Shown: positions 21,829 to 44,151 of the stretch, piece after piece | Position numbering within the stretch: the first letter of the stretch is position 1 | Layout: each line of letters starts with the position of its first letter | NCBI RefSeq assembly: GCF_001598055.1 | Contig: NZ_CP014845.1 | Span: 124,001 to 188,000, forward strand | Length of the DNA stretch: 64,000 nt | Reading direction: 5' to 3' | Origin: Cupriavidus nantongensis | GTDB lineage: Bacteria > Pseudomonadota > Gammaproteobacteria > Burkholderiales > Burkholderiaceae | Program-made: the position numbers and the translations under genes | The notes under the pieces: model-generated | Told to the model about the DNA's origin: nothing | What the model saw: the letters and a program-made list of their open reading frames with translations, nothing else | Database searches by the model: none

Positions 21829-21859
21829 CCACACACCAGTGAATCAGCAGGAACTACCC

Positions 21860-22285: not shown

Positions 22286-22299
22286 CAGAGATTTCCACC

Positions 22300-23364: not shown

Positions 23365-23443
23365 ATCCCGCCTTTTGAGCGGCGCGGTGCCTCCAAGGCT
23401 GCCACCGCCGCCCCATCCACCGAAGAGAACATCCGGAGACAGC

Positions 23444-24415: not shown

Positions 24416-24435
24416 GCCGTCCATCAACCCTCTGC

Positions 24436-24460
24436 CGCACCGGAGCGATAGCCCGGTGCG
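24436..24460 (+). terminator. hairpin between Bug 2 and aldehyde dehydrogenase genes
   Basis: CGCACCGG (24436-24443), nine-base loop, CCGGTGCG (24453-24460), with GTTTTTG eleven bases on. It could attenuate transcription between the receptor and the downstream dehydrogenase gene, leaving the latter at a lower level. Confidence 0.55.
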
Positions 24461-24508
24461 CCAGGGGCAGGTTTTTGTTCGAAACACCGGTCTTCCCGAA
24501 GGATAGCC

Positions 24509-26040: not shown

Positions 26041-26868
26041 CTACCGGCCGATGTCTGGCCTTTCGACACGCTTGTCGGACATTGCGGGCGAGGGCCCTTC
26101 GTCGGTGGCAAACTGGCCGAGCGTCAAGCGTGCCTGCGCGATGTCGTAGCGTTCGCCGCTGCCGCCTAACGACATCGTTACGGTCTTGGCCGCATTGAGT
26201 AAGGTGGCCACGGCGGCAAACATGGTCGCCGGCGCGCCGAGGCGCCCGATGGGCCCAGATATCGTCATCGCACCGACCAAGCGGTCCGTCGCATCAAATA
26301 CGGGCGCCGACGCTGACGCCGTTTCCCTTTCACGTTCGCCGTAGGAAACTGCCCAAAGCAGGTCACGCACCGAGCTCATACGGGGATCAACAGGCTTGCT
26401 GAATGCACGTAGCACCTTGCCGGACGCACCGCGATCAATGGGAAATTCCTCGCCGACACCGATCGACACTCGGACTGCCCGTGCTGGTTCGACGCGATGG
26501 AGAACGACGCGCATGCTGCCTTCGCGCACGTAGAACGATGAAGTTTCCCCCAGCTCCCTACTGAGTTGCGCCAGCAACCGCTCCACCACGGGCCCGACCC
26601 GGAATGATCGTTGATAAATCGCAGCGAGCCGCAGTGGGGCCGGGCCTACCCCGTATTGGCCGTCATCCAGCTTACGGATGAACCCCCCGTGCTCCAGCGC
26701 GCCGACCAATCGCAGCACGGTGCTCTTGTATAGGCCCGTCCGCCGGGAGAGTTCGGTCAGCGTAAGCCGCTCATCGTCGAGGCCGAAGGCCTCCAGGATC
26801 GCGAAGGCACGATCGAGCACTGCGACGCCGCTGGTGCCCGGTTCAAGATCACCGTTCTCTGAAGTCAT
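26041..26868 (-). CDS. IclR-family regulator of module A
   Basis: 275 aa. Residues about 18-75 form the winged helix (LTLTELSRRTGLYKSTVLRL, recognition helix YKSTVLRLVGAL), and 85-250 the IclR ligand-binding domain (VHHRVEP-like segment, DRGASGKVL, SAPVFDATDRLVGAM). It is divergent from the amidohydrolase operon at 27073, with palindromic sites GTTCT-N7-AGAAC between. Its paralogue at 39568 has the same residue spacing and the same divergent arrangement. The aldehyde dehydrogenase gene converges on it 140 bases away. The ligand is unknown, probably an organic acid. Confidence 0.93.
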   Translation of the reverse strand: MTSENGDLEPGTSGVAVLDRAFAILEAFGLDDERLTLTELSRRTGLYKSTVLRLVGALEHGGFIRKLDDGQYGVGPAPLRLAAIYQRSFRVGPVVERLLAQLSRELGETSSFYVREGSMRVVLHRVEPARAVRVSIGVGEEFPIDRGASGKVLRAFSKPVDPRMSSVRDLLWAVSYGERERETASASAPVFDATDRLVGAMTISGPIGRLGAPATMFAAVATLLNAAKTVTMSLGGSGERYDIAQARLTLGQFATDEGPSPAMSDKRVERPDIGR

Positions 26869-26901
26869 ATTTCGAGAGGCGCTGTGGCCCCGTTCGCCAA
26901 T

Positions 26902-26922
26902 GTGTTCTGCTCAGTAGAACAC
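26902..26922. promoter_or_regulatory. IclR operator candidate 1 of module A
   Basis: GTGTTCT-GCTCAGT-AGAACAC: perfect 7-base arms, spacer 7, 34 bases upstream of the iclR start. Core GTTCT-N7-AGAAC. The same core recurs at 27007-27023. Confidence 0.7.
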
Positions 26923-26998
26923 GAAATCAAAAAAACGGGAATTCAGGGGTTTACCCTAGTTAAAGACTCCGGATTTCCGATCTAAAGTTTTGTCCAAC

Positions 26999-27023
26999 AG
27001 AACATAGTTCTTCTGAATAGAAC
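26999..27023. promoter_or_regulatory. IclR operator candidate 2 of module A
   Basis: AGAAC-ATA-GTTCT (26999-27011) runs directly into GTTCT-TCTGAAT-AGAAC (27007-27023), so three half-sites are packed together. It is 50 bases upstream of the ATG at 27073. Its N7 core equals that of site 1; the spacing suits a regulator that controls both directions. Confidence 0.7.
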
Positions 27024-27072
27024 CAATTGGTGGTGCCGGCCTAAGGTTGGGCTTGGTTCAATCGATCACGAG

Positions 27073-28125
27073 ATGAACGCACAGACGAATTACTTGCCCG
27101 TCCGCGAACAATGGCTCGCCAAGGGCGCCGAGCCGCCGATTGACCCTGGCCTGCCGATAATCGATGCGCACCACCACTTCTATGAGCGCCCGGGATGGAC
27201 TTATCTGGCCGACGATTACCTGGCCGACGTGCGAGAGTCGGGGCACAACCTCGAGGCATCGGTCTACATGCAAGCGCTCACGCGCTACTTCACGGACGGC
27301 CCTGAGCACAGGAAGCCGGTCGGCGAGACGGTGTACGTCGCGAAGGCGACCCGCAAGGATGAGCGGTTAGCACCGCAGTTGTGCAAGGGCATAGTCGGTT
27401 ACGTCGACCTTCGGCAGGGTGCTGCGGTCCGCGAAATTCTGGAAGCGCATGTCGCAGCTGGCGAGGGGCGCTTTCGTGGCGTGCGCCATCTGACGACCTG
27501 GGATGCGGACACATCGTTGGTGAACCCGCTGAGCGCGGCGCCTCGAGGCCTATTGCTGGATGCTCGGTATCGGGCCGGGGTCAGTCAACTGGCTCCGATG
27601 GGACTGTCATATGACGCATGGCTGTTCTTCCACCAACTACCTGAGTTGGCCGACTTGGCCCGGGCCAACCCGGACACAACGATTGTTGTGAACCATTGCG
27701 GCGGCGTACTTGGGATTGGCGCCTATGCCGATCCGGGGCGGGCCGTCTTTAACCAATGGTCGACATCGATGCGGGCGCTGGCCCAGCTTCCGAATGTCTT
27801 TGTGAAGCTCGGCGGCCTGGGCATGCGCATCAACGGGTTCGGGTTCGACAAGGGCGAGAGGCCGCCTTCGTCCCTGCAGCTCGCGCAAGCGTGGAAGCCA
27901 TGGATACACAGCTGCATCGAGATGTTCGGTGCCGACCGCTGCATGTTCGAGAGCAATTTCCCGGTGGACAAGGGCTCGTATCCCTTCGGGAATGGCTGGA
28001 ACGCTTTCAAGAGGATGACCGAGGACGCGAGCGCTGAGGAGCGCGAGGCCTTGTTCAGGGGTACCGCCACCTCTGTATATCGGCTTGGCGGCAGCGACGC
28101 TGCCAGTGCTGCAACCGCGCGTTAG
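27073..28125 (+). CDS. amidohydrolase-2 family metal hydrolase
   Basis: 350 aa, no signal peptide. The TIM-barrel motifs are clear: IIDAHHHFYERPGW (metal HxH), GVRHLTTWD, VVNHCGGVLGIG (metal His) and CMFESNFPVDKGSY (metal Asp). This fits the aminocarboxymuconate-semialdehyde decarboxylase/lactonase group. It opens module A, with IclR operators just upstream, and the Bug gene follows 56 bases on. Likely a hydrolase or decarboxylase at the head of a catabolic route; the substrate is unknown. Confidence 0.88.
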   Translation: MNAQTNYLPVREQWLAKGAEPPIDPGLPIIDAHHHFYERPGWTYLADDYLADVRESGHNLEASVYMQALTRYFTDGPEHRKPVGETVYVAKATRKDERLAPQLCKGIVGYVDLRQGAAVREILEAHVAAGEGRFRGVRHLTTWDADTSLVNPLSAAPRGLLLDARYRAGVSQLAPMGLSYDAWLFFHQLPELADLARANPDTTIVVNHCGGVLGIGAYADPGRAVFNQWSTSMRALAQLPNVFVKLGGLGMRINGFGFDKGERPPSSLQLAQAWKPWIHSCIEMFGADRCMFESNFPVDKGSYPFGNGWNAFKRMTEDASAEEREALFRGTATSVYRLGGSDAASAATAR

Positions 28126-28181
28126 ATGCGCTATCGGCCGTTGGGCAATGGACCCGGTACGTGCCGCCCACAGGAGACAAC

Positions 28182-29201
28182 ATGATGCCTTCCTATACCA
28201 AGTTTGCCGCAAGGCGTTGCGTGACACGCGCCGCCACGGCCCTGATTTGCCTGGCAGTGGCGACGGCCGCGATGGGTGCCGCCACCGCTGACGCCTACGC
28301 CGCGGATGCCTATCCGAGCCGGCCCGTTCGCTTGGTGGTGCCGTTCCCCCCGGCCGGTGGCACTGACGTGCTATCAAGGCTGGTCTTCAACAAGATCGGA
28401 ATGTCCACACAGTGGAGTGTCGTGGTGGAGAACCGCGCTGGGGCGGGCGGCAACATCGGCCTGGACCTCGTTGCGAAGGCGAAACCGGACGGCTACACGC
28501 TTGGGATGGGGCAGACCGCAAACCTGGCGATCAATCCCGCGCTGTATCCGAAGATGCCCTACAACGCGGTAAAGGATTTCACCCCGATAGCGTTGGTCGC
28601 CGCGCAGCCTGTCGTGCTCATTGTGCGAGCCGACGCGCCTTACAAGAATCTGGCTGAGTTCGTCGCTGCGGCGAAGAGCCGGCAGATGTCAATGGCGTCG
28701 GCGGGTACCGGCACGGTAGGGCACCTGACCGGCGAAATGTTCCAGCGTAGGGCAGGCATCAAGTCGCTGCACGTGCCATACAAAGGCGCATCCCCGGCGC
28801 TGAACGATCTGCTGGGCGGCCAGACCGATTTCTACTTCGCGACGCCGCCCATCGCCATGCCCATGATCAGGGCCGGAAAGGTCCGCGCCCTTGCTGTCAC
28901 CTCGGCAAAGCGCCTGCCGATTCTGCAGTCGGTCCCAACCGTCGCAGAGTCCGGTTATGCCGGGTTCCAGGCGGAAGACTGGAAGGCGCTGGTCGCCCCC
29001 GCCAATACGCCGCCCGAAGTCGTGTCTCGCCTCAATGCCGAGGTGAACAAGGCACTGTCTCAGCCAGACACGATCGCCAAGCTCAAAGAGGAAGGCAGCG
29101 AGCCGAAGGGTGGCTCGGCGAAGGAGCTCGAAGCGCTACTGAAATCGGAAAACGCGCGCTGGGGTGACATCGTGCGCCAGTCTGGCGCACGCGTCGACTG
29201 A
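28182..29201 (+). CDS. Bug-family tricarboxylate receptor (Bug 3)
   Basis: 339 aa; ATG 28182 follows CACAGGAGACAAC. A long signal peptide ends near ADAYA, and the mature part starts DAYPSRPVRLVVPFPPAGG. It has Bug motifs VVVENRAGAGGNIGLDLVAK and HVPYKGASPALNDLLGGQTD. Its sequence is strikingly like Bug 6 at 36260 (shared GMGQ-A-NLAINP, ASQPVVL- or AAQPVVL-type segments, GGQTDF, KEEGSEP/QEEGSEP). It lies in module A between hydrolase and CoA-transferase genes. A hairpin (GCACTGG/CCAGTGC, 29216-29239) follows it. Confidence 0.94.
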   Translation: MMPSYTKFAARRCVTRAATALICLAVATAAMGAATADAYAADAYPSRPVRLVVPFPPAGGTDVLSRLVFNKIGMSTQWSVVVENRAGAGGNIGLDLVAKAKPDGYTLGMGQTANLAINPALYPKMPYNAVKDFTPIALVAAQPVVLIVRADAPYKNLAEFVAAAKSRQMSMASAGTGTVGHLTGEMFQRRAGIKSLHVPYKGASPALNDLLGGQTDFYFATPPIAMPMIRAGKVRALAVTSAKRLPILQSVPTVAESGYAGFQAEDWKALVAPANTPPEVVSRLNAEVNKALSQPDTIAKLKEEGSEPKGGSAKELEALLKSENARWGDIVRQSGARVD

Positions 29202-29260
29202 GTGAAACGTAACAAGCACTGGGTCAACCGGTCCAGTGCCGCATCGATGCAGAGCATGCC

Positions 29261-30460
29261 ATGAACAAACCACTGCGCGGGAAGCGTATTCTTGATCTGA
29301 CCAATGTGTTGGCGGGCCCATTCTGTTGCCATCAACTCGCGCACATGGGTGCAGACGTTATCAAAGTGGAGACGCCGGGCACTGGTGACCTTGCCCGGCA
29401 GCTCGGCGCTGACGCGGAACTCAACCGCAAACTGATGGGCGTTTCTTTCCTTGCCCAGAACCCAGGCAAGCGCTCCATCACCGTCAATCTCAAACATGCA
29501 CGCGGCAAAGATGTCTTGCGCCGGCTGGTTCAGAATGCCGATGTCCTTGTGGAGAACTTCCGTCCGGGTGTCATGACGCGGCTGGGCGTTGGCTACGACG
29601 AACTTCAGCGCGTCAATCCGCGCTTGATCTACTGCGCGATCTCTGGCTTCGGTCAGGATGGCCCCCTGTCGGACTTGCCTGCCTATGACCAGATCATCCA
29701 GGGCATGTCCGGCGTCATGAGCATCACGGGCGATGCCGAGTCCGCTCCACTGCGTGTGGGTTATCCGGTCGCCGACACGATTGGCGGCATGACGGCCGCT
29801 TTCGCCATTGCGTCAGCGCTTGCGGACAGCGAACGAACGCAAGGGTACTTCCTCGATGTGTCGATGCTGGAGGCGACGATGGCAACGATGGGTTGGGTCG
29901 TGTCCAACCACCTCATTGCAGCCAAGGAGCCGATGGCCTTGGGCAACGTCAACATGACGGCAAGCCCTTCCGGCACGTTCCGGACTGGCGATGCACCACT
30001 CAATATCGCTGCCAACAAGCAGGAGCAGTTCGAAGCCGTCTGCCGCGTCATCGGTCGCCCGGATCTGGCGGGCGATCCTCGCTTTGCCGAGCGACAGTCA
30101 CGGCTGACCAATCGTGACGCGCTGACGGCGGAACTGGAGGCTGAACTGGCGAAGAAGCCAGCCATGGAATGGTGGACATTGCTCAACGAAGCAGGGGTGC
30201 CCGCAGGACCGGTGCTGACGGTACCAGAGGTTCTCGCGCATCCACAAGTCCGCGATCGCGGCATGATTGGCGACTTTTCGGACGTGCCAGGAGTGGATCG
30301 CGATATCCGATTGGTGCGCACAGGATTCAAGGTAAACGGGTCGGCTCCGTCGGTGCAAACGCCCCCACCGCAGCTCGGGGAGCACACCGACGAGATTCTG
30401 CAGGAACTCGGTTACACCACGGACGACATCGCAGCGCTGAAAAAGGAGCGTGCACTATGA
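29261..30460 (+). CDS. CaiB/BaiF-family CoA-transferase (module A)
   Basis: 399 aa class III CoA-transferase. It moves CoA between acyl groups via a mixed anhydride on a conserved Asp, here Asp172 in PVADTIGGMTAA. The N-terminal nucleotide-binding motif LDLTNVLAGPFCCHQLAHMG and NLKHARGKDVLRRLVQNADV are typical. Its stop overlaps the ATG of the next gene (ATGA), a citryl-CoA-lyase-like enzyme, so the two are likely made in equal amounts. The pair should first form a CoA thioester and then cleave it. Confidence 0.94.
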   Translation: MNKPLRGKRILDLTNVLAGPFCCHQLAHMGADVIKVETPGTGDLARQLGADAELNRKLMGVSFLAQNPGKRSITVNLKHARGKDVLRRLVQNADVLVENFRPGVMTRLGVGYDELQRVNPRLIYCAISGFGQDGPLSDLPAYDQIIQGMSGVMSITGDAESAPLRVGYPVADTIGGMTAAFAIASALADSERTQGYFLDVSMLEATMATMGWVVSNHLIAAKEPMALGNVNMTASPSGTFRTGDAPLNIAANKQEQFEAVCRVIGRPDLAGDPRFAERQSRLTNRDALTAELEAELAKKPAMEWWTLLNEAGVPAGPVLTVPEVLAHPQVRDRGMIGDFSDVPGVDRDIRLVRTGFKVNGSAPSVQTPPPQLGEHTDEILQELGYTTDDIAALKKERAL

Positions 30461-31320
30461 CAGATTCCACCAATCCAAACATGGCGCTGCCCGATGCCGG
30501 CCAGCAGGCTTCGCAGGACTGGTGGCGCACCCGCATCATCGACATGCAGCCCGGCGAGATTCGCTTCCGCGGCTATCCGATCGAGGAACTGATTGGCAAT
30601 GTGTCGTTTGTCCAAATGGTCTGGTTGATGCTGCGTGGTGAACTGCCAATGCATGAGCAAAGCGCATTGCTCGATGCCGCACTGATGGCAGGCGTGGACC
30701 ATGGCCCGCAGGCGCCCAGCATTGCGATTGCCCGCATGGCAGCGACGTGCGGCGTTGGACTGAACAGCGCGATGGCATCAGCAGTGAACGTTCTGGGCGA
30801 TGTGCACGGCGGCGCGGGCGAGCAGGCTGTCGACCTCTACCTCGACATCGCGCGTCGAGCCGACGAGGGCGCGACGCTGGACGATGCCGTGGCAGCGGGA
30901 TTGGCCCAGTATCGCGATCTGCACGGCAAGTTCGTGTCGGGCTTCGGCCATCGCTTCCACCCTGTTGATCCGCGCGCGCCACGTCTGCTGGCGCTGGTCG
31001 AACAGGCAGCGGCCGCCGGGATCGTCAGCGGACGATTCGCCGATATCGCACGACGCATCGAGCAGGCTCTTGGTGCGGGCCGCAGCAAGTCCATTCCGAT
31101 GAACATCGATGGGGCCACTGCGGTCATTTACGCAGAGCTGGGCTTTCCGGCACCTTTGGCACGAGGCTTGTTCTGCCTGTCACGCTCCGTTGGCATTCTC
31201 GCCCACGCCTGGGAGCAGACCTGCCAGGGCGGCAGGAACAAGGGCCCCATTCCTCGGCAATTCCTCTGTTCCTATGTCGGCGAACCGAAACGAGCGGTGC
31301 CGGTGCCTCGCCGTTCCTGA
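30457..31320 (+). CDS. citryl-CoA lyase-like (short citrate synthase family) enzyme
   Basis: 287 aa, about 130 residues shorter than bacterial citrate synthases, the size of citryl-CoA lyase-type proteins. The three citrate-synthase catalytic residues are all visible: His117 in GDVHGGAGE, His165 in GFGHRFHPV and Asp218 in MNIDGATA. It overlaps the upstream CoA-transferase gene by 4 bases (ATGA). It is predicted to split an activated tertiary hydroxy-acid CoA ester into acetyl-CoA and a keto acid. The substrate could be citryl-CoA, citramalyl-CoA or a relative; position does not decide. Confidence 0.85.
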   Translation: MTDSTNPNMALPDAGQQASQDWWRTRIIDMQPGEIRFRGYPIEELIGNVSFVQMVWLMLRGELPMHEQSALLDAALMAGVDHGPQAPSIAIARMAATCGVGLNSAMASAVNVLGDVHGGAGEQAVDLYLDIARRADEGATLDDAVAAGLAQYRDLHGKFVSGFGHRFHPVDPRAPRLLALVEQAAAAGIVSGRFADIARRIEQALGAGRSKSIPMNIDGATAVIYAELGFPAPLARGLFCLSRSVGILAHAWEQTCQGGRNKGPIPRQFLCSYVGEPKRAVPVPRRS

Positions 31321-31437
31321 TACCGGCCCGGCAACCCAGAACTCGATTCTGGTGCGCCGGCCGACTCTTCTCAGCACTTCTTGACAGCGATTTGACGTAT
31401 GCAAGTCGCCTCGCCACGACAACACAAGGAGACAACC

Positions 31438-32397
31438 ATGTTGAACCGACTCATTGCCGCCGGCGCCATCATGCTGGCCAGCCTTCCCGTTTGCGCTGAT
31501 ACCTGGCCCAGCAAGCCCGTGCGGGTCATCGTCCCATATTCTGCGGGGGGTACAACAGACTATGTCGCCCGGCAAGCTGCCCAGAAGCTCACGGATGCTA
31601 CTGGCAAGTCGTTCTTCGTCGAGAACAAGCCTGGCGCCAGCGGCACAATTGGTACGCTCCAGGTCGTGCGCGCGGCGCCGGACGGCTATACCTTGCTGGC
31701 GAACGACACCACCTACACGATGCTGCCGTCCCTCTTCAAGAAACTGCCATGGGATCACCAAAAGGATCTAATTCCGGTAACCACGATTGCGCAGACTCCG
31801 GTCATTCTGATCGTGCCGGCGGGTTCGCCATTCAAGAGCCTGCAGCAGTTGATTGCATTCGCGAAGCAAAATCCAGGGAAGCTCAACTTCGGCTCGGGAG
31901 GTGCGGGAAGCTCGACGCACCTTGCGGCTGAGGTCTTCGAGAAGTCATCCGGCGTCACGATGAGCCACATCCCGTACAAGGGAGCAGGAGAGGCGCTGAT
32001 GGGGTTGATCTCGAGCAATGTGGACGTGCTGATCACCGCGACGCCCACCGCCGTCCCTCAAGTCAAAGGCGGCAAGGCACGTGCGCTGGCCGTGACGGGC
32101 AATGCTCGCGTGCCTGCTCTTGCCGACGTTCCCACGTTTGCCGAGGCGGGTCTGAAGGACTACAACGTCGTCAACTGGTTCGGCTTGGCGGCACCGAAAG
32201 GCACACCGGACGATATCGTCACAAAGCTGCAGGTCGAGATCCAGAAGAGCATGAATAGCGCCGACATGAAGGAACGACTGACTGGCATGGGCGCCACGCC
32301 GGGCGGTGTTCCGTCCAGCGAGTTTGCGAACCGGATCAGGCAGGATACGGCCATGTGGACCGAGGTCGCGAGATCAGCAAATGTAAAGCCGGAATAG
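31438..32397 (+). CDS. Bug-family tricarboxylate receptor (Bug 4)
   Basis: 319 aa, ATG 31438 after CAAGGAGACAACC. The signal peptide is short, ending SLPVCA, and the mature part starts DTWPSKPVRVIVPYSAGG. Motifs: FFVENKPGASGTIGTLQVV and HIPYKGAGEALMGLISSN. It is a close relative of Bug 5 at 34012 (shared GKSFFVEN, KLPWDH, KLNFGSGG, SSTHL, NWFGLAAP/SWFGLATP-type segments). Last gene of module A, facing Bug 5's operon. It recognises a substrate different from that of Bug 3. Confidence 0.94.
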   Translation: MLNRLIAAGAIMLASLPVCADTWPSKPVRVIVPYSAGGTTDYVARQAAQKLTDATGKSFFVENKPGASGTIGTLQVVRAAPDGYTLLANDTTYTMLPSLFKKLPWDHQKDLIPVTTIAQTPVILIVPAGSPFKSLQQLIAFAKQNPGKLNFGSGGAGSSTHLAAEVFEKSSGVTMSHIPYKGAGEALMGLISSNVDVLITATPTAVPQVKGGKARALAVTGNARVPALADVPTFAEAGLKDYNVVNWFGLAAPKGTPDDIVTKLQVEIQKSMNSADMKERLTGMGATPGGVPSSEFANRIRQDTAMWTEVARSANVKPE

Positions 32398-32445
32398 AAT
32401 ACGACTTCTGCACTGACATCTCCCTGCCTGATGCGATGCTTTTTT

Positions 32446-32466
32446 GCGTCGGGCGCGCACCGACGC
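32446..32466. terminator. hairpin in the gap between modules A and B
   Basis: GCGTCGG (32446-32452), seven-base loop, CCGACGC (32460-32466). TTTTTT lies 20 bases further on, after a second short dyad. It lies in the 120-base convergent gap, so it may end both operons. Confidence 0.55.
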
Positions 32467-32517
32467 GCCGCTGGCGGTTGACGACTTTTTTGGGCGGCTG
32501 GTATGCGCTAATTTCCT

Positions 32518-33042
32518 TTAGCCGCGACGGATCAGTCCCGCGGCGAAACGGCGGGCATTCTGGATGTAGTCCTCGGCGCTCTTCCCCAAGCCATCCAGTT
32601 GCTCTGGACTCAGCGGCTTGATGGCCTTCCCCGGCACGCCCAGCACCATGTGGTCATCTGGCATCTCCTTGCCTTCGGTCACCAACGCCCCGGCGCCGAC
32701 GAGCGAGCGAGCACCGATCCTTGCGCCGTTCAGAACCATTGCACCGATGCCTATCAGTGCGCCGTCGCCCACGGTGCATCCGTGCAGCACCACCCGATGG
32801 CCTATGGTGACGTGGTTGCCTACAGTGAGAGGGACTCCTTCATCGGCATGCAGGATAGAGCCATCCTGGATACTTGTCCCGGAACCGATCGTCAGGGTCG
32901 CGTTGTCGCCCCGCAGCACGGCGCCGAACCAGATACTGGATCCCTCGCCGATCACCACGTCGCCGATTACATCGGCACTGTCAGCAATCCAGACACCCGG
33001 TGCAATGCGGGGAGAAATACCGTTCAATTCGTAGATAGCCAT
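32518..33042 (-). CDS. gamma-carbonic anhydrase-family hexapeptide protein
   Basis: 174 aa, a left-handed parallel beta-helix of hexapeptide repeats (IAPGVWIADSADVIGDVVIG, and more). Zn ligands by family pattern: His65 in ILHADEG, His82 and His87 in IGHRVVLHGC. Members include gamma-carbonic anhydrase, YrdA and PaaY, a thioesterase. Last gene of module B, 12 bases after the lactonase gene. A thioesterase-like or carbonic-anhydrase role in the pathway is possible but not shown. Confidence 0.92.
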   Translation of the reverse strand: MAIYELNGISPRIAPGVWIADSADVIGDVVIGEGSSIWFGAVLRGDNATLTIGSGTSIQDGSILHADEGVPLTVGNHVTIGHRVVLHGCTVGDGALIGIGAMVLNGARIGARSLVGAGALVTEGKEMPDDHMVLGVPGKAIKPLSPEQLDGLGKSAEDYIQNARRFAAGLIRRG

Positions 33043-33054
33043 AGTAAGTTCGAA

Positions 33055-33996
33055 TCAATCGAAGGTTACGGAAGAGTGGGAATATATGGACGCGCCGCAG
33101 ACGGGTAGTTCCGCTGTCAGCACCGTCCCGGTTTGAGATTCGGTCAAAAACAGGGACGACGTGCCCGGCTTGAACGCGACGTTGGTAATGTTGTGACCCG
33201 TCGGACTTCGCACGTAATGAGTAACTTCACCGGCGGCGTTGAGGACAAAGGCTCCGCCCAGACTCGCATGGGCCACGACGAGGCCGCCATCGGCCGTGGG
33301 AGCCAGACCGTCTGGCCCACTGGTGCCGAAGAGCGTCTGGAAGGCGCCCATTTTGGAGATTGTTCCGTCGCGCATTATCGGTGCCCGCCAGACCTGATTC
33401 GCTCGGGTGACCGCGACGAACAGCACGTTGCCCTCGGCGTTCAGGGCGATGCCGTTCGGGCTCGGAACATTCGAAACCAGACAGTCCAGTCCGCCGTCCA
33501 CCCTATGGCGATAGACTCGTCCAGTCGGATCATGCAGGCCGGTTTGGCCCTGATCGGTGAAGTACAGGTTGCCGCTCGAATCAAAGACGAGATCGTTGAC
33601 TCCCTTAAAGGACTCGCTGTTGCGCGTGCCGAGCACAGTTTCCAGGGCTCCTGTGGCGGCGTCGACTCGAATGATCCCATGCCTGTAATCCGCGACTAGC
33701 AGGCTGCCGTCCTGATGAATTGCAAGGCCGTTGGGCCAGCCGAGTCCGTCGGCGATAACCGTCCAGTCATCGGGCGCGTTGACCCGGAGTATCCGCCCGT
33801 GCGGAACGTCGGTCAGATAAAGGGCGCCGTCTTGCGAGAATGCCGGGCCTTCGAGAAAGCAGTCCACGAGCTGGCCCTGTTTGTTGGCATCGGCCCATGG
33901 GCTATGTCGCGCCATCCGAAGGCCGTCGGGAACGCGCGCAAAAACCGCGGCTTGAATGACGATAGGCGGGGCGAACGAGAGGTTCCACATGGTCAT
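33055..33996 (-). CDS. SMP-30/gluconolactonase-family lactonase
   Basis: 313 aa six-bladed beta-propeller, no signal peptide. Metal and active-site motifs of the family are visible: LEGPAFSQDG (Glu), GWPNGLAI, FKGVNDLVFDSSGNLYFTDQ (Asn), SPNGIALN and TSGPDGLAPTADGG (Asp). Such enzymes open sugar or hydroxy-acid lactones. It lies between Bug 5 and the gamma-carbonic anhydrase gene, in a tight run of minus-strand genes. Probably hydrolyses a lactone intermediate of module B; it could have another hydrolase activity. Confidence 0.9.
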   Translation of the reverse strand: MTMWNLSFAPPIVIQAAVFARVPDGLRMARHSPWADANKQGQLVDCFLEGPAFSQDGALYLTDVPHGRILRVNAPDDWTVIADGLGWPNGLAIHQDGSLLVADYRHGIIRVDAATGALETVLGTRNSESFKGVNDLVFDSSGNLYFTDQGQTGLHDPTGRVYRHRVDGGLDCLVSNVPSPNGIALNAEGNVLFVAVTRANQVWRAPIMRDGTISKMGAFQTLFGTSGPDGLAPTADGGLVVAHASLGGAFVLNAAGEVTHYVRSPTGHNITNVAFKPGTSSLFLTESQTGTVLTAELPVCGASIYSHSSVTFD

Positions 33997-34011
33997 GTCT
34001 ACGCTTTCGGG

Positions 34012-34998
34012 TCATTCCGGCTTTACACCGGCCTTCTCTCCAACCTGGGCCCAAATCACGATTTCCTGATTTACAAAGCGCCCAAAAGCCTCGACGCTCA
34101 TCGGTCGGTAGACTGCACCTTGTTGAGCAAACGTCCGTTGCACCTCAGGGTCCCGCATTGCCGTGGCCACCAGGTCGTGCAGCTTGGCCACGATTGCGGG
34201 CGAAGTGCCGCGAGGGGTAGCAAGTCCAAACCAGCTGACTCCCTTGTAGTCGGGCAGGCCGGCCTCGGCAAAGGTCGGTACGGCGGGAAGGGCGGGGATT
34301 CTTTCGCTGCCGCTGACGGCCAGCGCCCTGACGCGCCCACCCTTGACTTGCGCAATGCTGGTCGGCGTTGCAGCGACTAGCATGTCAATCTGCCCGGCCA
34401 GTAAGTCTGCTGCGGCTGCCCCCGCACCGCGGTACGGGATGTGGGTGATCGACACACCTGCCACCGACTTGAAGAGCTCTGCCCCAAGATGCGTGGAACT
34501 GCCTGGTCCGCCGGAGCCGAAGTTTAGTTTGCCGGGATTCGCCTTGGCAAACGCCACGAGTTCGGCAACCGTCTTGAACGGCGATCGCTCTGGCACCGTG
34601 AGCATCACGGGCGTTTCGATCAGCTCCGTGATGTGAACAAGATCCTTCATGTGGTCCCACGGCAGCTTGGCGAAGACCAGAGGCAACATCGCGTAGGTGG
34701 TGTCGGTCACCAGCAAGGTGCTGCCATCAGGCGCGGATCGCACAACCTCCTGCGTTGCGATGGTGCCGGAGCCTCCGGTCTTGTTCTCGACGAAGAAACT
34801 CTTGCCGGTAAGCTTGGTCAGTTTTTGCGCGATCAGGCGAGCAGCGAAGTCTGTCGTGCCGCCCGCGGAGTAAGGCACGACCAGCCGTACCGGCTTGTCG
34901 GGCCACGCGCTGGTTTGCGCCAGAGTGGGCAGGCTGCAGATCAGTCCGGCGGAAACTAGAAGTATGCCGAGGGTCGTTCGGCGCGCCGAGTTGGCCAT
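34012..34998 (-). CDS. Bug-family tricarboxylate receptor (Bug 5)
   Basis: 328 aa; the ATG follows CGGAGACAACATC. The signal peptide ends LPTLA, and the mature part starts QTSAWPDKPVRLVVPYSAGG. Bug motifs: FFVENKTGGSGTIATQEVV and HIPYRGAGAAAADLLAGQID. Very like Bug 4 in module A, and placed in the same inner position relative to the middle of the mirror. It probably feeds the pathway of module B. It follows the alpha/beta hydrolase gene. Confidence 0.94.
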   Translation of the reverse strand: MANSARRTTLGILLVSAGLICSLPTLAQTSAWPDKPVRLVVPYSAGGTTDFAARLIAQKLTKLTGKSFFVENKTGGSGTIATQEVVRSAPDGSTLLVTDTTYAMLPLVFAKLPWDHMKDLVHITELIETPVMLTVPERSPFKTVAELVAFAKANPGKLNFGSGGPGSSTHLGAELFKSVAGVSITHIPYRGAGAAAADLLAGQIDMLVAATPTSIAQVKGGRVRALAVSGSERIPALPAVPTFAEAGLPDYKGVSWFGLATPRGTSPAIVAKLHDLVATAMRDPEVQRTFAQQGAVYRPMSVEAFGRFVNQEIVIWAQVGEKAGVKPE

Positions 34999-35034
34999 GA
35001 TGTTGTCTCCGATATGTGCGTTGTGATCGGACTT

Positions 35035-36207
35035 TTAGTTGAGTGTCTTGCGCAGCCAGCCATCGATCCATGCCGCGACATCGTTACTGTTCTTCTCGAG
35101 CATAACCATGTGACCGTTGCCGCGCAGGCCTATTTCTTCCAGCCTGACGATTTCGGTAGGCACTCCCGCCTGGGATAGCCAGCGTGCGGTGCAGTGGTCG
35201 TACTGCGAATGGAAGGACGCCTCAGTGATCAGCACGGTGATCGGTATGCCTTTGAGGTTGGGCAGTTGTCGCGCCGGGGCCTTTTGTCGCCAGCACGCCA
35301 TCAACTGCGGACGCTCTGGCGTGGTCTCTTTCTCGATGTCAAGCGTGGAAGCATCCATGACGGGGGGGTCGTAGGTAATAGGCACGTCTGCCACACCCCA
35401 TGCAAGCTGCTTCTTGGCGCCGAAGACCGTGGAGGATTCGATGGGCGGACCGTTTGGCTCAACCGATACAATCGCCTTGACCAACTGCGGGCGGGCGTCA
35501 GCCAGCAGCCAGCCGAACGGCCCTGCCTGTGAGTGCGTGATCAACACCGCCGGGCCAATACGATCCAGCAGTGCCGTGCCGGCTTGCTTCACCAGGGCTT
35601 GAGTCTCTGCGTTGGTTCCCAAGTATTCGACCTGACTCGAATAGAACTGATCGAACACCGAGTCGCCCATCCTGCCTTTGTTGGGCCCGGTGCCTGGCCA
35701 TTGGGTATGGAGCTTGGCCTGCGGCCAGTTCCCACGGGCCGCGGAGTCAGTGAATAGCATTTCAATCTTGGGCGCAGAGAACTTCGTCAGCGTGCCATCC
35801 AGGCCGGGGTGCCACGCGGACCGGCCCCTTGCGGGCTGGTCCACTAGGTACACGTCGTAACCTCGATCTAGGAAATACGATGCCCAACCTGGGCGTCCGT
35901 CCGGCGTCGTGATCCAGTTCACAGCTGTCTGGGCAGCGCCGTGGAAGAAAACCACCGGGTACTTTTGCGTCACGCGGGCAGGGGCGAGATGCTCAACGTA
36001 CATCGCCCCCTGCATGACTTCCTGCCCCCCCGTACCAACGTATCGGCCGCCGGCGAAGAACACGTCGCGACGTTCCGCCGCGGTCTGGACCGCGGCCCTT
36101 GGTGAATCAGTCGTGGGCATGCCACCGCACCCGCCCGTCACGACCGCGCCGACCATGCACACGACACTGGCGCTGGCCTTGCAATTTGCCCGAAATTGCC
36201 TCTTCAT
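35035..36207 (-). CDS. putative lipoprotein alpha/beta hydrolase
   Basis: 390 aa. The N-terminus MKRQFRANCKASASVVCMVG and the lipobox-like VVTGGCGG suggest a lipoprotein with Cys27 lipidated. The alpha/beta-hydrolase core has VVFFHGAAQTAVNWI (oxyanion region), LITHSQAGPFGWLLA with the nucleophile Ser, an acid residue within ITVLITEAS and His in RGNGHMVML. It is preceded by ATGGAGACAAAGAAACC, a relative of the leader seen before the Bug genes. It may hydrolyse an ester or lactone outside the cytoplasm to give a Bug ligand. Confidence 0.85.
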   Translation of the reverse strand: MKRQFRANCKASASVVCMVGAVVTGGCGGMPTTDSPRAAVQTAAERRDVFFAGGRYVGTGGQEVMQGAMYVEHLAPARVTQKYPVVFFHGAAQTAVNWITTPDGRPGWASYFLDRGYDVYLVDQPARGRSAWHPGLDGTLTKFSAPKIEMLFTDSAARGNWPQAKLHTQWPGTGPNKGRMGDSVFDQFYSSQVEYLGTNAETQALVKQAGTALLDRIGPAVLITHSQAGPFGWLLADARPQLVKAIVSVEPNGPPIESSTVFGAKKQLAWGVADVPITYDPPVMDASTLDIEKETTPERPQLMACWRQKAPARQLPNLKGIPITVLITEASFHSQYDHCTARWLSQAGVPTEIVRLEEIGLRGNGHMVMLEKNSNDVAAWIDGWLRKTLN

Positions 36208-36259
36208 GGTTTCTTTGTCTCCATTGCGTCTTGAAGGTCTAAAGGGGAGTCAAGGTCAG

Positions 36260-37255
36260 TCACTCGAGCTTGATGCCGGCTACGCGAACGAGATCGCCCC
36301 ACTTCTTGCCCTCATCCTGGATAAACCTCGCAAAATGCGCGGGTGATCCACCCAACGGCTCACTGCCTTCCTCCTGGAGCTTCTTGACGATGTGCGGATC
36401 CTTCAAGGTGGCCTGCACGCGGGCATTGATCTGGTTCACTATCTGGAGAGACACGCCGGCGGGTGCGACAAGACCCGTCCACGCGCTGCTCTCGAACCCC
36501 GGGAAGCCCGATTCCGCCACCGTTGGCACTGCCGGCAGTGCTGCCAACCGTTGAGGCGAGCTGACAGCGAGCGCCCGCAGTTTGCCGGTTCGGATCATCG
36601 GGTAAGCCGCCTGTGGCACGCTGAAGAAGAAGTCGGTCTGGCCGCCCATCAGGTCGGTCAGCGCCTGACCGGCCCCCTTGTAGGGTACGTGCAGGAACTT
36701 CACGCCAGCCTTCCTCCCCAGGAGTTCACCTGACATGTGCCCGATGGTCCCGGCACCCGAAGAGGCCATCTTGACTGCACCGGAACGCGCCTTGGCTGCC
36801 TTGAGCAGGTCGTCAACGGTCTTGTGAGGGGAGTCGCCTCGAACAACGAGCACCACCGGCTGCGATGCGACAAGAACGATCGGAGTGAAATCCTTCACTG
36901 GGTCGAATGGCATCGAGGAGTACAGCCAGGGGTTAATGGCCAGATTGGCCGCCTGCCCCATGCCGATCGTGTAAGCGTCGGGTGCCGACTTGGCGAGGGA
37001 CGCCATGCCGATGTTGCCTGTCGCGCCCGGCTTGTTTTCGATGACGACTGTCCAGCCGTGTTTCTGCAACAGGGAATCGGCGATGATGCGCGATATGGTG
37101 TCAGTGCCGCCGCCAGGCGGCATGGGCACGATCATCTTGATCGGCCGTTGAGGGTAGGTATTCTGGGCATAAGCGGGCAGGGTCGCGGCGCCCAGAAGGG
37201 CCGCTGTCAGCAAAGCACTGCGTGCAAGGGCCGCGCGACGAATATTCACACTCAT
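36260..37255 (-). CDS. Bug-family tricarboxylate receptor (Bug 6)
   Basis: 331 aa; ATG 37255 follows CAGGAGACAACC. The signal peptide ends TLPAYA, and the mature part starts QNTYPQRPIKMIVPMPPGGG. Motifs: VVIENKPGATGNIGMASLAK and HVPYKGAGQALTDLMGGQTD. Its closest match in the window is Bug 3 of module A. In module B it follows the CoA-transferase gene by 57 bases. Confidence 0.94.
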   Translation of the reverse strand: MSVNIRRAALARSALLTAALLGAATLPAYAQNTYPQRPIKMIVPMPPGGGTDTISRIIADSLLQKHGWTVVIENKPGATGNIGMASLAKSAPDAYTIGMGQAANLAINPWLYSSMPFDPVKDFTPIVLVASQPVVLVVRGDSPHKTVDDLLKAAKARSGAVKMASSGAGTIGHMSGELLGRKAGVKFLHVPYKGAGQALTDLMGGQTDFFFSVPQAAYPMIRTGKLRALAVSSPQRLAALPAVPTVAESGFPGFESSAWTGLVAPAGVSLQIVNQINARVQATLKDPHIVKKLQEEGSEPLGGSPAHFARFIQDEGKKWGDLVRVAGIKLE

Positions 37256-37312
37256 GGTTGTCTCCTGATTTATATTGGTTTACGGATGAGGTGGGGGGCG
37301 GAACCACTCCGC

Positions 37313-38536
37313 TTACGAGACTGTGCCGATCACGCCCTCCGCAGCGAGATTGGAAATCTCGCTTTCGCTCAGGCCGAGCCTGGTCAGCAGTTCATGCCCC
37401 TTTTCTCCCAGGCGAGGCGGCTGATGGCGAACGCCCGGGCGTCGGCCGCCCAAGGTGAATGGCAATAGGGGGGTATAGGTGTCGTTGCCCGCCTTTTCGC
37501 CGTCAGGCAAGGAGACCCTCGCCAAGCCGCCGGTCTCCTTCAAGTGGATGTCGTCGAAGAGGTCGCCTGGGCGAGCGATCGGTGCAAAAGGCAACCCGTG
37601 GCGCTCAAAGTTGTCGGCCAACTCTTGTTTGGACATCGAACCTAGGCGGGTGCGGATATCTGGCATTAGCCACGGCCGTGCTTCCACGCGCTGGTTGTTC
37701 GTGATCAGCCGCGCGTCCCGGGAAAGGTCATCGAAGCCGAACGCCCGGCAGAAAATCTCCCACTGCGTATCGGACACGACGGCCAGGAAGATCTGCTCCC
37801 CGTCTTTCACGGTGAACACGTCGTAGATCGCCCAGGCCGATATGCGGCTGGGCATGGGGGAGGGTGCCAGCCCAGTCACGGCTTGCTGCATCATGTGGTG
37901 GCCGACCAGGAATACATTGTTCTCAAACAGGGCCGATTGCACTTCCTGACCCACGCCCGTGCGTTGCCGCTCGAACAGCGAGACAATCGCGCCCAGCGCG
38001 CCGAACACGCCTCCCATGATGTCGTTGACTGCCGCGCCTGCACGCAACGGTTGGCCGCTTGGCCCAGTCATGTAGGCCAAGCCACCCATCATCTGCACCA
38101 CCTCGTCGAGCGCGGTTCGATGGTCGTACGGCCCTGGCAGAAAGCCCTTGTGAGAGACGTACACCAGGCGTGGGTTGAGCTTGCGCAAGGTTTCGTAGTC
38201 AAGGCCATTCTTGGCCATGGTGCCCGCCTTAAAGTTTTCGCTCACCACGTCGGCGGTGCCAATGAGCTTGAGGACCAGTTCGCGGCCTCGGGGGTCTTTG
38301 AGGTTCACCGGCAGGCTCTTCTTGTTTCGGTTGAACATCGGAAAGAAGCCGGCGCCCGAACCTTTAAGGCGGCGCGTGTTGTCGCCGACTAGCGGCTCTA
38401 TCTTGATTACATCCGCCCCGAGGTCACCCAGTACCATGCCGCAGGTCGGCCCCATGACCATGTGCGTGAATTCAACTACCCGGATGCCGGCCAGAGGAAG
38501 CTGATCCTGCGTCTGAGACTCCGCTGCGCTGCTCAT
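37313..38536 (-). CDS. CaiB/BaiF-family CoA-transferase (module B)
   Basis: 407 aa class III CoA-transferase with catalytic Asp172 in AAVNDIMGGVFG. It has the N-terminal VVEFTHMVMGPTCGMVLGDL and the NLKDPRGRELVLKLIGTADV motif. Its ATG overlaps the stop of the HMG-CoA-lyase-like gene (ATGA), so lyase and CoA-transferase are translationally coupled, as in module A but in the opposite order. It probably activates a dicarboxylate or hydroxy-acid using succinyl- or acetyl-CoA. Confidence 0.94.
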   Translation of the reverse strand: MSSAAESQTQDQLPLAGIRVVEFTHMVMGPTCGMVLGDLGADVIKIEPLVGDNTRRLKGSGAGFFPMFNRNKKSLPVNLKDPRGRELVLKLIGTADVVSENFKAGTMAKNGLDYETLRKLNPRLVYVSHKGFLPGPYDHRTALDEVVQMMGGLAYMTGPSGQPLRAGAAVNDIMGGVFGALGAIVSLFERQRTGVGQEVQSALFENNVFLVGHHMMQQAVTGLAPSPMPSRISAWAIYDVFTVKDGEQIFLAVVSDTQWEIFCRAFGFDDLSRDARLITNNQRVEARPWLMPDIRTRLGSMSKQELADNFERHGLPFAPIARPGDLFDDIHLKETGGLARVSLPDGEKAGNDTYTPLLPFTLGGRRPGVRHQPPRLGEKGHELLTRLGLSESEISNLAAEGVIGTVS

Positions 38537-39459
38537 GCGGCCTCCTTGGCATAGTGGAACCCCTTCGGCAGGCCGGCTGCAGGCACATAGCCGTACAACG
38601 CCTCGTTAGGCAGTGCCTCTGCAAGTACCGCGCGCGCATTCGCAAGCAGTTCAAGGTCTACCCCTGTCTTGACGCCGCTTGCCTCCAACATGAACACCAG
38701 GTCTTCGGTGACGATGTTGCCCGTCGCTCCCGGCGCGTACGGACATCCGCCAATGCCGCCTTGGCTGGAGTCGAACGTCGTTACGCCAGCATCAAGTGCG
38801 GCAACTACGTTCGCCAAGCCTTGCCCACGAGTGTTGTGGAAGTGCGCGCCGCCTGCTTTGTTGCCCACCTCCTCGCGCAAGCGAGTGAACAGTCGCTTGA
38901 CCTGTGCGGGGTTGGCATAGCCCACGCTGTCGGAGAGGCCCACCTCGTCCACGCCGAGTTCGGCCATGCGAACGGACACGCGAATCGTGTCGTCTTCCGG
39001 TACGTCGCCAGAAATGGTGCAGCCAAAAGCAGTCGACAGTCCGGCCTCGATTTTCACATCCGGAAACCTCTCGTTCCGCAGCGCGACGATGTTCGCCACG
39101 TCCTCCTCGATCTGCTCCGGCGTCTTGCGGATGTTCGACCACAGATGTGCTGCGCTGACGGATACAGGCAGCGTCAGCTTGTGCGCGCCAGCCTCCATTG
39201 CGGCGATGGCGCCGCGTAGGTTGGGCACCAGCACTGCCACAGTGAGGTCACGAAGGGTCAATGCATGGCGGACCACTTCGACAGCGTCCGCCATCTGCGG
39301 CAGTAGCTTGGGGGATACGAAGGAAGCTACTTCGATCTCACGCAGCCCAGCGGCGGCAAGCGTGTCGATCCATCTGCACTTCGCGCTCGTCGGCATCGTG
39401 GCGGCGATGGACTGGAGTCCATCACGGGGCGCAACTTCACTGATCAATACCTGGGTCAT
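38533..39459 (-). CDS. HMG-CoA lyase-family enzyme
   Basis: 308 aa TIM-barrel C-C lyase. Metal ligand motifs: EVAPRDGLQ (Asp) and AHFHNTRG (HxH). The catalytic Cys is in GGIGGCPYAPGATGN, the HMG-CoA lyase signature. It splits 3-hydroxy-3-methylglutaryl-CoA-like esters into acetyl-CoA and a keto acid. The real substrate may be a longer or shorter hydroxyacyl-CoA made by the partner CoA-transferase, whose gene it overlaps. First gene of module B and divergent from the IclR gene at 39568. Confidence 0.93.
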   Translation of the reverse strand: MTQVLISEVAPRDGLQSIAATMPTSAKCRWIDTLAAAGLREIEVASFVSPKLLPQMADAVEVVRHALTLRDLTVAVLVPNLRGAIAAMEAGAHKLTLPVSVSAAHLWSNIRKTPEQIEEDVANIVALRNERFPDVKIEAGLSTAFGCTISGDVPEDDTIRVSVRMAELGVDEVGLSDSVGYANPAQVKRLFTRLREEVGNKAGGAHFHNTRGQGLANVVAALDAGVTTFDSSQGGIGGCPYAPGATGNIVTEDLVFMLEASGVKTGVDLELLANARAVLAEALPNEALYGYVPAAGLPKGFHYAKEAA

Positions 39460-39484
39460 CGCATATCTCCTTGCGGTCTTCGTC

Positions 39485-39512
39485 GTTCCAATAGTTGGAA
39501 CACAGTTCCAAC
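39485..39512. promoter_or_regulatory. IclR operator candidates of module B
   Basis: GTTCCAA-TAG-TTGGAAC (39485-39501; core GTTCC-N7-GGAAC) runs into GTTGGAAC-ACA-GTTCCAAC (39494-39512), again three packed half-sites. It has the same spacing plan as the module A sites, with T replaced by C in the half-site. It sits 26 bases from the HMG-CoA-lyase start and 56 from the iclR start. Confidence 0.75.
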
Positions 39513-39567
39513 TTATGTATTGTGATTATGGTAGGATCCGACCCTGCGGTCAATTACCAACAGCCCT

Positions 39568-40281
39568 ATGCCTAAGAAGCCCGTGCAATCCCCGCTAGCA
39601 GAAGAGGACTCCGCCCCGGGCGGGGCCTCGACTGTCGACCGTGCGCTGTCGCTGCTGGATGCATTCACCATGGACGACCGCACTCTCACGCTCAGTGAGC
39701 TTGCGGAACGCACCCGCATGTACAAAAGCACGACCAAGCGCATGCTTGCGTCGCTGCAGCACCGTGGGCTAGTGATTCAGAACGAAGACGGGACCTTTGG
39801 ACTAGGCGGGGCGATCGCTCGGCTGAACGCGATTTACGTCGCGAGTTTTTCGCTGGAGTCGGTGGTGATGCCGGTGCTCGAGGATCTTGTGAAGGCGACC
39901 CAAGAGACGGCCGCATACTATGTACGGCAGGGCGCCATGCGGCTGTGCCTGTTTCGGGTGGATTCGCCTCAACCGATGCGTGTGCACGTCAAAACTGGCG
40001 ACCTCTTGCCCTTGGATCAGGGCTCCGGCGGCCGCGTGCTGCTCGCCTTCTCCGGCGCCAAAGGGAAGATCTATGATGCGGTTCGCGAGGCAGGTGTCGC
40101 GGCTTTGGTAGGTGATCGAAAGCCAGACATCGCAGGCGTGTCCGCGCCCGTGTTTGATGCAGAGAACAAGCTCGCCGGGGCAGTCACCCTGACCCTTCCT
40201 GCATCTCGTTTCTCTGACAGCTTGGCCAGTGCTGTGGTCAATTCTGCGGCCAAGGTAACGGGAAAGCTCCGAGGGAATTAG
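39568..40281 (+). CDS. IclR-family regulator of module B
   Basis: 237 aa. The winged helix is at about 20-80 (LTLSELAERTRMYKSTTKRM), and the effector domain spans about 85-230 (YYVRQGAMRLCLFRV, DQGSGGRVLLAF, SAPVFDAENKLAGAV). It is a paralogue of the IclR at 26041: the same YKST recognition start but different following residues (TTKRMLASL against TVLRLVGAL). It is divergent from the HMG-CoA-lyase operon with palindromes between, and probably represses or activates that operon and itself. Shorter than its paralogue by about 38 residues, mostly at the two ends. Confidence 0.93.
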   Translation: MPKKPVQSPLAEEDSAPGGASTVDRALSLLDAFTMDDRTLTLSELAERTRMYKSTTKRMLASLQHRGLVIQNEDGTFGLGGAIARLNAIYVASFSLESVVMPVLEDLVKATQETAAYYVRQGAMRLCLFRVDSPQPMRVHVKTGDLLPLDQGSGGRVLLAFSGAKGKIYDAVREAGVAALVGDRKPDIAGVSAPVFDAENKLAGAVTLTLPASRFSDSLASAVVNSAAKVTGKLRGN

Positions 40282-44149: not shown

Positions 44150-44151
44150 CC

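Follow-up and report, generated by a model that had tools for sequence, protein, structure and literature searches.

Gene content of the two convergent operons

The stretch analysed here, hereafter the window, comprises 64,000 bp of the Cupriavidus nantongensis genome (C2:124001-188000 of 7.14 Mb; contig NZ_CP014845.1), and our subject is a pair of predicted catabolic operons within it, called left (L) and right (R), that face each other. The left operon is read from the + strand. Its first gene encodes a COG3618-like amidohydrolase (Amidohyd_L, Amidohydro_2; 27073-28125; PF04909) and is followed by Bug3, a TctC-type periplasmic receptor of type 3/6 (28161-29201; PF03401), the class III coenzyme A (CoA) transferase CaiB_L (29261-30460; PF02515), CCL_L, a lyase of the citryl-CoA-lyase type with a citrate-synthase C-terminal domain (30457-31320), and Bug4, a TctC-type receptor of type 4/5 (31399-32397; PF03401). 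The genes of CaiB_L and CCL_L overlap by 4 nt. The divergent regulator gene of IclR type, IclR_L (26041-26868, - strand; PF09339/PF01614), points outwards.

The right operon is read from the - strand, in the order HMGL_R, a lyase of the 3-hydroxy-3-methylglutaryl-CoA (HMG-CoA) lyase type (38533-39459; PF00682), CaiB_R, a class III CoA-transferase of a second lineage in the CaiB tree (37313-38536; PF02515), Bug6, a receptor of type 3/6 (36260-37255; PF03401), an alpha/beta hydrolase (35035-36207; PF00561/PF12697; PDB matches 4q34 and 1qlw), Bug5, a receptor of type 4/5 (34012-34998; PF03401; 67-68% identical to its counterpart in locus L251), a hydrolase of the SMP-30/gluconolactonase family (33055-33996; PF08450), and a hexapeptide protein resembling gamma-carbonic anhydrase (gamma-CA), PaaY and CaiE (32518-33042; PF00132; 169 bits against NF050158, below its cut-off of 250). 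Its regulator gene IclR_R (39568-40281, + strand; PF09339/PF01614) also points outwards. The two operons meet at a 120-bp gap (32398-32517), in which no intrinsic terminator was found. This gene content, with its directions, outward IclR genes and point of convergence, had been described in an original prediction made from the sequence alone, and domain matches and coordinates bear it out; the mirror image also described there is not strict, as the order of genes differs between the halves.

Further modules in the same genome

Three more modules of similar composition were found in the genome. M3 (L085:6329-11869; C2:1.800-1.806 Mb) consists of an IclR gene, a Bug of type 3/6, a LigK-like aldolase (159 bits, below the cut-off of 179), a 2-hydroxyacid dehydrogenase, a Bug of type 4/5 and an SMP-30 gene whose product is 49% identical to that of the right operon. 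The LigK-like aldolase would be a third, unrelated enzyme cleaving a tertiary-alcohol acid. M4 (L086) has a CaiB and a CCL 75% and 80% identical to the left pair, together with an IclR that is 56% identical to IclR_R but 38% to IclR_L; no Bug was matched within its 19 kb stretch. M5 (L103) has an HMGL and a CaiB 48% and 57% identical to the right pair; beside them stand a gene that by eye looks LysR-like and a Bug belonging to neither type. The mixed composition of M3, M4 and M5 therefore indicates that parts have been reshuffled already inside one genome.

Related operons in other genomes

The whole left operon was found in loci L197 and L199 and on a plasmid of Cupriavidus sp. KK10 (L291), and also, with only a short match for the IclR, in L198. 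Ten more Cupriavidus loci (L031-L038, L054, L297) contain Bug3-CaiB-CCL but lack Bug4 and the amidohydrolase; an M4-type IclR is close by in six. Right-type operons occur in L251, L256 and L260, with IclR, HMGL, CaiB, Bug 3/6, Bug 4/5 and SMP-30 genes; the alpha/beta hydrolase had no match in these three. Among 398 genomes of the family, matches to HMGL_R (E up to 1e-105) were found in 59, the source genome included, and matches to the amidohydrolase at the same limit in 61; in 51 of the latter an HMGL match shares the contig at a distance of 3.6-5.7 kb. Within the genus, G058 alone among 59 other genomes has an HMGL as similar as 72%, all the rest being at or below 52%.

Several of these operons combine parts of both halves. 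The Burkholderia-type operon, annotated in B. stagnalis and P. aromaticivorans, contains an IclR_L-type regulator, HMGL, a CaiB_R-type transferase, a major facilitator superfamily (MFS) transporter and the amidohydrolase; a left-type regulator and an ortholog of the left amidohydrolase thus stand together with the right lyase and CoA-transferase types. An intermediate build, L192 (G058:C6), has IclR_L, MFS, amidohydrolase, Bug3-type, CaiB and CCL genes, and the HMGL operon L193 begins about 17 kb beyond it, a second case of both types close together. In the Comamonadaceae locus L276 the set is IclR_L-type, amidohydrolase, HMGL, CaiB_R-type and Bug 4/5-type. Roseomonas mucosa (L278) pairs an HMGL (67%) with a CaiB of the left type (61-63%; 31% to CaiB_R). 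A counterpart of the gamma-CA-like gene (39%) lies behind HMGL-CaiB in A. lipoferum.

Less regular sets were also seen. In Pollutimonas subterranea (L040:7180-10804) a 2-hydroxyacid dehydrogenase gene and an RraA-like gene (42-43% to M3) immediately precede a Bug gene and a CCL that has no CaiB next to it, which would place the third cleavage chemistry alongside CCL. In Bradyrhizobium sp. CB82 (L290:6001-8818) a CCL is followed by an SMP-30 gene (53%), and the only CoA-transferase annotated nearby is short.

Exchange of parts across 101 loci

The combinations were counted over 101 loci: the window, three loci of the same genome, all 24 loci of one set, 19 of the 20 of a second and 30 of a third, two Burkholderia plasmid loci and 22 plasmid loci. 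These came from 19 of the 58 HMGL genomes and 19 of the 60 amidohydrolase genomes other than our own, from 22 of the 28 genomes of a further search list, and from plasmid records opened directly for CCL (15 of 28) or HMGL (7 of 16). Some genomes gave two or more loci, and the two operons of G058 were entered separately; L211, a 2-kb tail, was left out, and L214 was scanned for operators only. Genes were called by limits on identity and length. Because the loci were chosen for carrying CCL, HMGL, amidohydrolase or Bug5, the counts show which combinations exist and not how frequent they are, which limits their weight for the interpretation below.

The CoA-transferase lineage, the kind of hydrolase and the IclR subtype were each seen with both lyase types. 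For CaiB lineage and adjacent lyase the counts were 39 L-CCL, 47 R-HMGL, four R-CCL (L052, L280, L281, L288) and one L-HMGL (L278); two CaiB_R-type genes had no called lyase (L207 and L250, which hold an HMGL match dropped by the caller). In 66 of the 91 pairs, among them the two of the window, the CaiB and lyase genes can overlap by 4 nt. The CaiB tree gives an R lineage of 53 rows (support 100) with the R-CCL rows at its base (96) and places the L-HMGL row inside the L lineage (95, 99), which implies a minimum of two lyase changes; these are quick trees with support from the Shimodaira-Hasegawa-like approximate likelihood ratio test (SH-aLRT) only. Within 8 kb of a lyase, the amidohydrolase was found with HMGL 18 times and with CCL seven times, and SMP-30 with HMGL seven times (in L278 on the opposite strand), with CCL once and with RraA once. 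By best match, IclR_L-type regulators accompany 18 HMGL and six CCL loci, IclR_R-type five and one, M4-type eight and 11, and M3-type two and four, and the lyase label, traced over 55 of the 57 rows in the IclR tree, changes at least five times. Both lyases were called in the window only, CCL alone in 45 loci, HMGL alone in 49 and neither in six (L207, L250, L201, L208, L085, L277). Slots for regulator, hydrolase, transport, CoA-transferase and lyase have thus been recombined within one operon family, and this family of exchangeable parts with both lyase types is the new result.

The operator and the IclR regulators

GTTCT-N7-AGAAC was the top word in a count over 35 intergenic regions of IclR-led operons, where it occurs exactly in 24 and with at most one mismatch in 32; the corresponding means over 200 mononucleotide shuffles were 0.02 and 0.29, values that understate chance, since the word was chosen on the same 35 related regions. 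Over all sets, 29 of 44 IclR intergenic regions have an exact site and 38 one with at most one mismatch; none at that limit was found in the remaining six, namely the right promoter of the window, L085 (M3), L193 (first 700 bases scanned), L267, L278 and L279. The operator precedes HMGL, amidohydrolase, MFS and CaiB starts; with such an IclR adjacent, it is usually present ahead of either lyase type. Beyond these 44 regions, in ten Cupriavidus loci that have Bug3-CaiB-CCL (in M4, CaiB-CCL) but no divergent IclR it lies just upstream of Bug3 or CaiB, in eight of them exactly, compared with a shuffle expectation of 0.31 per 20 kb. An exact operator beside an IclR gene was also found in Azospirillum argentinense and Agrobacterium larrymoorei.

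The left promoter has two exact sites (26904-26920 and 27007-27023) and one with a single mismatch (26987-27003). The spacing of their starts, 83+20, is 84+20 in the Burkholderia-type HMGL promoters of L203, L210, L212 and L213. Genome-wide the exact word occurs twice, both times in the left promoter, and the looser GTTCY-N7-RGAAC is at chance (23 copies, 20 for the control). In the right promoter the site is GTTCCAA-TAG-TTGGAAC-ACA-GTTCCAA (39485-39511), with the changed core GTTCC-N7-GGAAC, two mismatches from the operator. By the marks of a subfamily IclR and an operator at the operon start, the left operon belongs to the family with exact sites and the right one only with its changed core. 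At one position of what we take, from the fold of the family, to be the recognition helix (KSTTKRM in IclR_R), 55 of 57 aligned IclRs have Leu, one has Ile and IclR_R alone has Lys.

GTTCCG-N5-CGGAAC palindromes were seen at C1:3235791 and C1:3833021, near two other IclR matches. Sites with a GTTCC core may be common IclR operators in this genome, and IclR_R may share its core with those.

Enzymes and predicted pathway

CCL_L passes the curated model NF004864 (477.9 bits, cut-off 261; scanned on the longer open reading frame 30169-31320), its best PDB match is 6hxp, and its motifs HGGA, GHR..DPR and NIDGA are conserved in an alignment with 6hxp and, by the commonest variants, across 30 rows. 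HMGL_R passes NF004283 (283.4 bits, cut-off 246) and keeps RDG, HxH and GCPYAPG. Catalytic roles are ascribed to these motifs in both families. For both CaiBs the best model is succinate-glutarate CoA-transferase, at scores far below its cut-off. At its N terminus the right alpha/beta hydrolase has, by eye, a lipobox-like VTGGC, and it is possibly a periplasmic esterase.

Transport genes that adjoin CCL or HMGL pairs include TctABC, divalent anion:sodium symporter (DASS) and citrate:proton symporter genes, and an HMGL nearer the M5 type adjoins tripartite ATP-independent periplasmic (TRAP) transporter genes; such neighbours indicate di- or tricarboxylate substrates. TctA and TctB are absent from both modules of the window; both were found in L045, L048 and L053, TctA was tested alone and found in L049 and L051, and they are annotated in L284. 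Citryl-CoA lyase, HMG-CoA lyase and LigK have in common a cleavage at a tertiary alcohol, which supports a branched hydroxy-acid as substrate. Candidates, among which we make no choice, are citramalate, citrate, homocitrate and its lactone, hydroxycitrate lactones, itatartarate/2-hydroxyparaconate and 3-hydroxy-3-methylglutarate. In Azoarcus sp. KH32C (L279:1710-10342), CaiB-CCL stands in an IclR-led set with an annotated shikimate dehydrogenase, dehydroquinate dehydratase and 4-hydroxyphenylpyruvate dioxygenase, neighbours that are a possible hint to a substrate.

We consider it probable (about 0.6) that the two halves are members, standing side by side, of one exchangeable-part operon family for the predicted breakdown of tertiary hydroxy-acids. 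The anatomy, the exchange of parts, the conservation of the operator sequence and the trees are direct results; for substrate, reactions, transport, DNA binding and specificity, we infer the following scheme. Receptors of the Bug 3/6 and 4/5 kinds would bind a small tertiary hydroxy-(di/tri)carboxylate. The acid would be freed from a lactone or ester by a hydrolase, which is COG3618-like in the left operon and SMP-30 in the right one, possibly with the aid of a periplasmic esterase; the class III CoA-transferase would activate it to the CoA ester, and the lyase would split this beta-hydroxyacyl-CoA to give acetyl-CoA plus an oxo acid. For the lyase, either of two unrelated folds is used, a citrate-synthase fold or the triosephosphate isomerase (TIM) barrel of HMG-CoA lyase, and either CaiB lineage would feed it. 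Since each lyase would thus take CoA esters from either lineage, both probably catalyse the same retro-Claisen step on the same or similar esters. One IclR subfamily would bind GTTCT-N7-AGAAC before both versions, and IclR_R and its operator may have changed together to GTTCC-N7-GGAAC, preventing cross-regulation of the operons. That the unrelated lyase folds are drop-in replacements acting on the same CoA ester, exchanged within one operator-marked family of operons (IclR-led loci of beta- and some alphaproteobacteria), and that one regulator-operator pair was rewired for insulation (Leu to Lys, T:A to C:G), is a more tentative proposal, to which we give somewhat less than an even chance.

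If true, the family is a natural experiment in catabolic operon assembly, in which slots are filled from a pool and one slot has been filled by two unrelated enzymes. The operator then becomes a searchable mark for further members and, through the genes swapped in, for their substrate; the orphan Bug receptors (115 matches in this genome) gain a handle, with two receptor types tied to one chemistry; and IclR_R, having changed in step with its operator, would clearly exemplify how a regulator can free itself from cross-talk with related ones.

Alternative explanations

Besides the limits of word choice and sampling given above, several observations weigh against this interpretation. The amidohydrolase fails the curated L-fucono-1,5-lactonase model (68.9 bits, cut-off 400), and the Asp of strand 8 (GSDWP in 4dlf), to which a functional role is ascribed in this enzyme type, is Asn in 23 of 24 rows and Asp in one. 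Although the HxH motif is kept, the Asp to Asn change and the low score led us not to accept a standard lactonase role as shown; the SMP-30 enzymes of the other half are often, not always, lactonases. Some CaiB-lyase pairs adjoin ATP-binding cassette (ABC) or MFS transporters. No operator at one mismatch was found in 13 of 27 scanned loci (L039, L040, L043, L045, L047, L048, L051-L053, L279, L282-L284), mostly alphaproteobacterial CaiB-CCL loci without an adjacent IclR, and in several others of the 27 the site lies only away from the operon start. The operator therefore tracks the IclR subfamily and not the enzymes. The Lys and operator change concerns a single regulator and is suggestive only.

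The remaining adverse points are those that favour the strongest alternative, namely that the operons form one family acting on different substrates, with the swapped lyase marking a substrate altered in stereochemistry or side chain and the common parts limited to regulator, transport and hydrolase folds. This genome and G058 hold both operon types, so the two lyases may act on substrates that differ in side chain or stereochemistry. The CaiB lineage mostly matches the lyase fold (86 of 91 pairs); crossed pairs are few (five), and the four R-CCL cases are one clade at the base of the R lineage. The trees of Bug 3/6 and of Bug 4/5 agree with the lyase type, each needing a single change, and the receptors may for that reason be tuned to the lyase version. 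Set against these are regulator and amidohydrolase subtypes and an operator layout common to both lyases, and crossed CaiB pairs in both directions; on balance we regard different substrates as rather unlikely.

It is improbable that these are common catabolic genes lying loosely together without a joint pathway. The genome has 38 CaiB matches beside its many Bug and IclR genes, which could cluster by chance, but gene order is kept across several genera, CaiB and lyase genes overlap by 4 nt, one operator is common to the modules, and IclR_L and its three strong relatives in the genome all adjoin such modules.

Relationship between the two halves

It had also been predicted that the halves descend from one module. 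The resemblance of the receptors on which this rested, one of each kind per module, was confirmed by blastp: Bug3 and Bug6 are 53.5% identical, Bug4 and Bug5 55.4%, and within the genome they are mutual best matches. Among the 115 TctC/Bug matches Bug3 finds Bug6 first (384 bits, next 333 at C2:1804024) and Bug4 finds Bug5 first (385 bits, next 371 at C2:1801305), so the pairing exceeds chance. The two IclRs, from one subfamily, are 39% identical; the best match of IclR_L in the genome is the third module's regulator (C2:1805134, 169 bits), followed by IclR_R (159) and a relative at C2:1871482, after which scores drop sharply from 141 to 50 bits. CaiB_L and CaiB_R are only 29% identical, two old lineages in the CaiB tree, each with a far closer relative elsewhere (75% at C2:1867874 and 57% at C2:2193036). 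The lyases belong to different families, and the amidohydrolase and the alpha/beta hydrolase, which had been taken as counterparts, have unrelated folds; the right SMP-30 gene is the likelier counterpart of the amidohydrolase.

In trees, all four Bugs and both IclRs are closer to genes of other genomes than to their local partners, an outcome that the original prediction had itself named as speaking against descent from one module, and IclR_L falls in one clade with the IclRs of Burkholderia-type HMGL operons. The approximately unbiased (AU) test rejects every local pair tested (Bug4+Bug5, p 1.1e-57; Bug3+Bug6, 5.8e-4; IclR_L+IclR_R, 9.4e-4), on quick trees and with long branches in the IclR set. 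Long inverted repeats in the DNA (134-271 nt, 70-73%) are confined to Bug genes, and in the stretches opened neither the left-type operons (L197, L198, L199, L291) nor the right-type ones (L251, L256, L260) are accompanied by the other half. A local duplication, with an inverted copy of one module and later divergence of the two, is therefore rejected as very improbable on the CaiB relatives elsewhere, the repeats in Bug genes only and the AU test, despite the pairing of the Bugs and the common IclR subfamily.

Of two related routes, as originally proposed, there remain the two receptor kinds, the CoA activation and the predicted products acetyl-CoA and oxo acid, without local common descent; what the halves have in common dates further back, to the operon family described above. 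The stated difference between the lyases extends to non-homologous folds; as a sign of two divergent chemistries it is less convincing, since the types appear interchangeable.

Over 42 bp of Bug6 (36623-36664) there is 97.6% identity with a site close to the CCL locus on the C. metallidurans megaplasmid, although the genes otherwise differ widely; this may be a conserved motif or a product of gene conversion.

Comparison with known systems

The closest known system is the itaconate/methylsuccinate cluster Ict-Ich-Ccl with Mcd and Msi of P. aeruginosa and C. necator (PMC12290011; PMC9875883), which likewise joins a CoA-transferase with a C-C lyase to give acetyl-CoA and an oxo acid, and which in P. 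aeruginosa includes a 2-hydroxyparaconate lactonase according to the passages available. No itaconyl-CoA hydratase domain was found among the 14 genes of the two modules, and membership in this cluster was rejected. Its Ccl is presumably of the CitE type; the window lyases have other folds, and the operons differ further in their IclR/operator frame and two Bugs.

CCL_L shares its domain and conserved motifs with the citryl-CoA lyase 6hxp, an enzyme that we take to act in the reductive tricarboxylic acid (TCA) cycle, but is coupled to a CoA-transferase in catabolic operons. HMGL_R, by cut-off and motifs, resembles the HMG-CoA lyases of leucine/HMG catabolism, whereas the right operon has a CoA-transferase, receptors and lactonase-type genes, with no leucine-pathway gene seen. 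M3, in which the LigK-like gene and a 2-hydroxyacid dehydrogenase gene stand next to Bug and SMP-30 genes of the types seen here, recalls 4-carboxy-4-hydroxy-2-oxoadipate/HMG aldolase (RraA-LigK), but is without CoA activation and the shared operator.

Mesaconate utilisation via citramalyl-CoA (PMC4682846) follows, in the passages available, the same two-step logic of activation and cleavage; the locus is not named in those passages, so the likeness is one of logic, and no fumarase lies inside the window modules. The Bug family has been described in C. metallidurans (PMC2864759), and IclR neighbours in A. baylyi (PMC4213383). The available passages of these five papers do not describe the present operons. 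In the open-licence PMC literature no description of this operon family was found, and none pairing 'citryl-CoA lyase' with 'CaiB'.

Neighbouring genes

Directly left of the pair (19612-25900) lies another catabolic set, with GntR, Amidohydro_2 (20770-21828), cupin, isocitrate/isopropylmalate-type dehydrogenase, Bug and aldehyde dehydrogenase genes. On the other side (43415-49073), a succinate-dehydrogenase/fumarate-reductase-like set (flavoprotein 44832-46580) precedes a gene of class I fumarase type (46593-47528) and another Amidohydro_2 gene (48240-49073).

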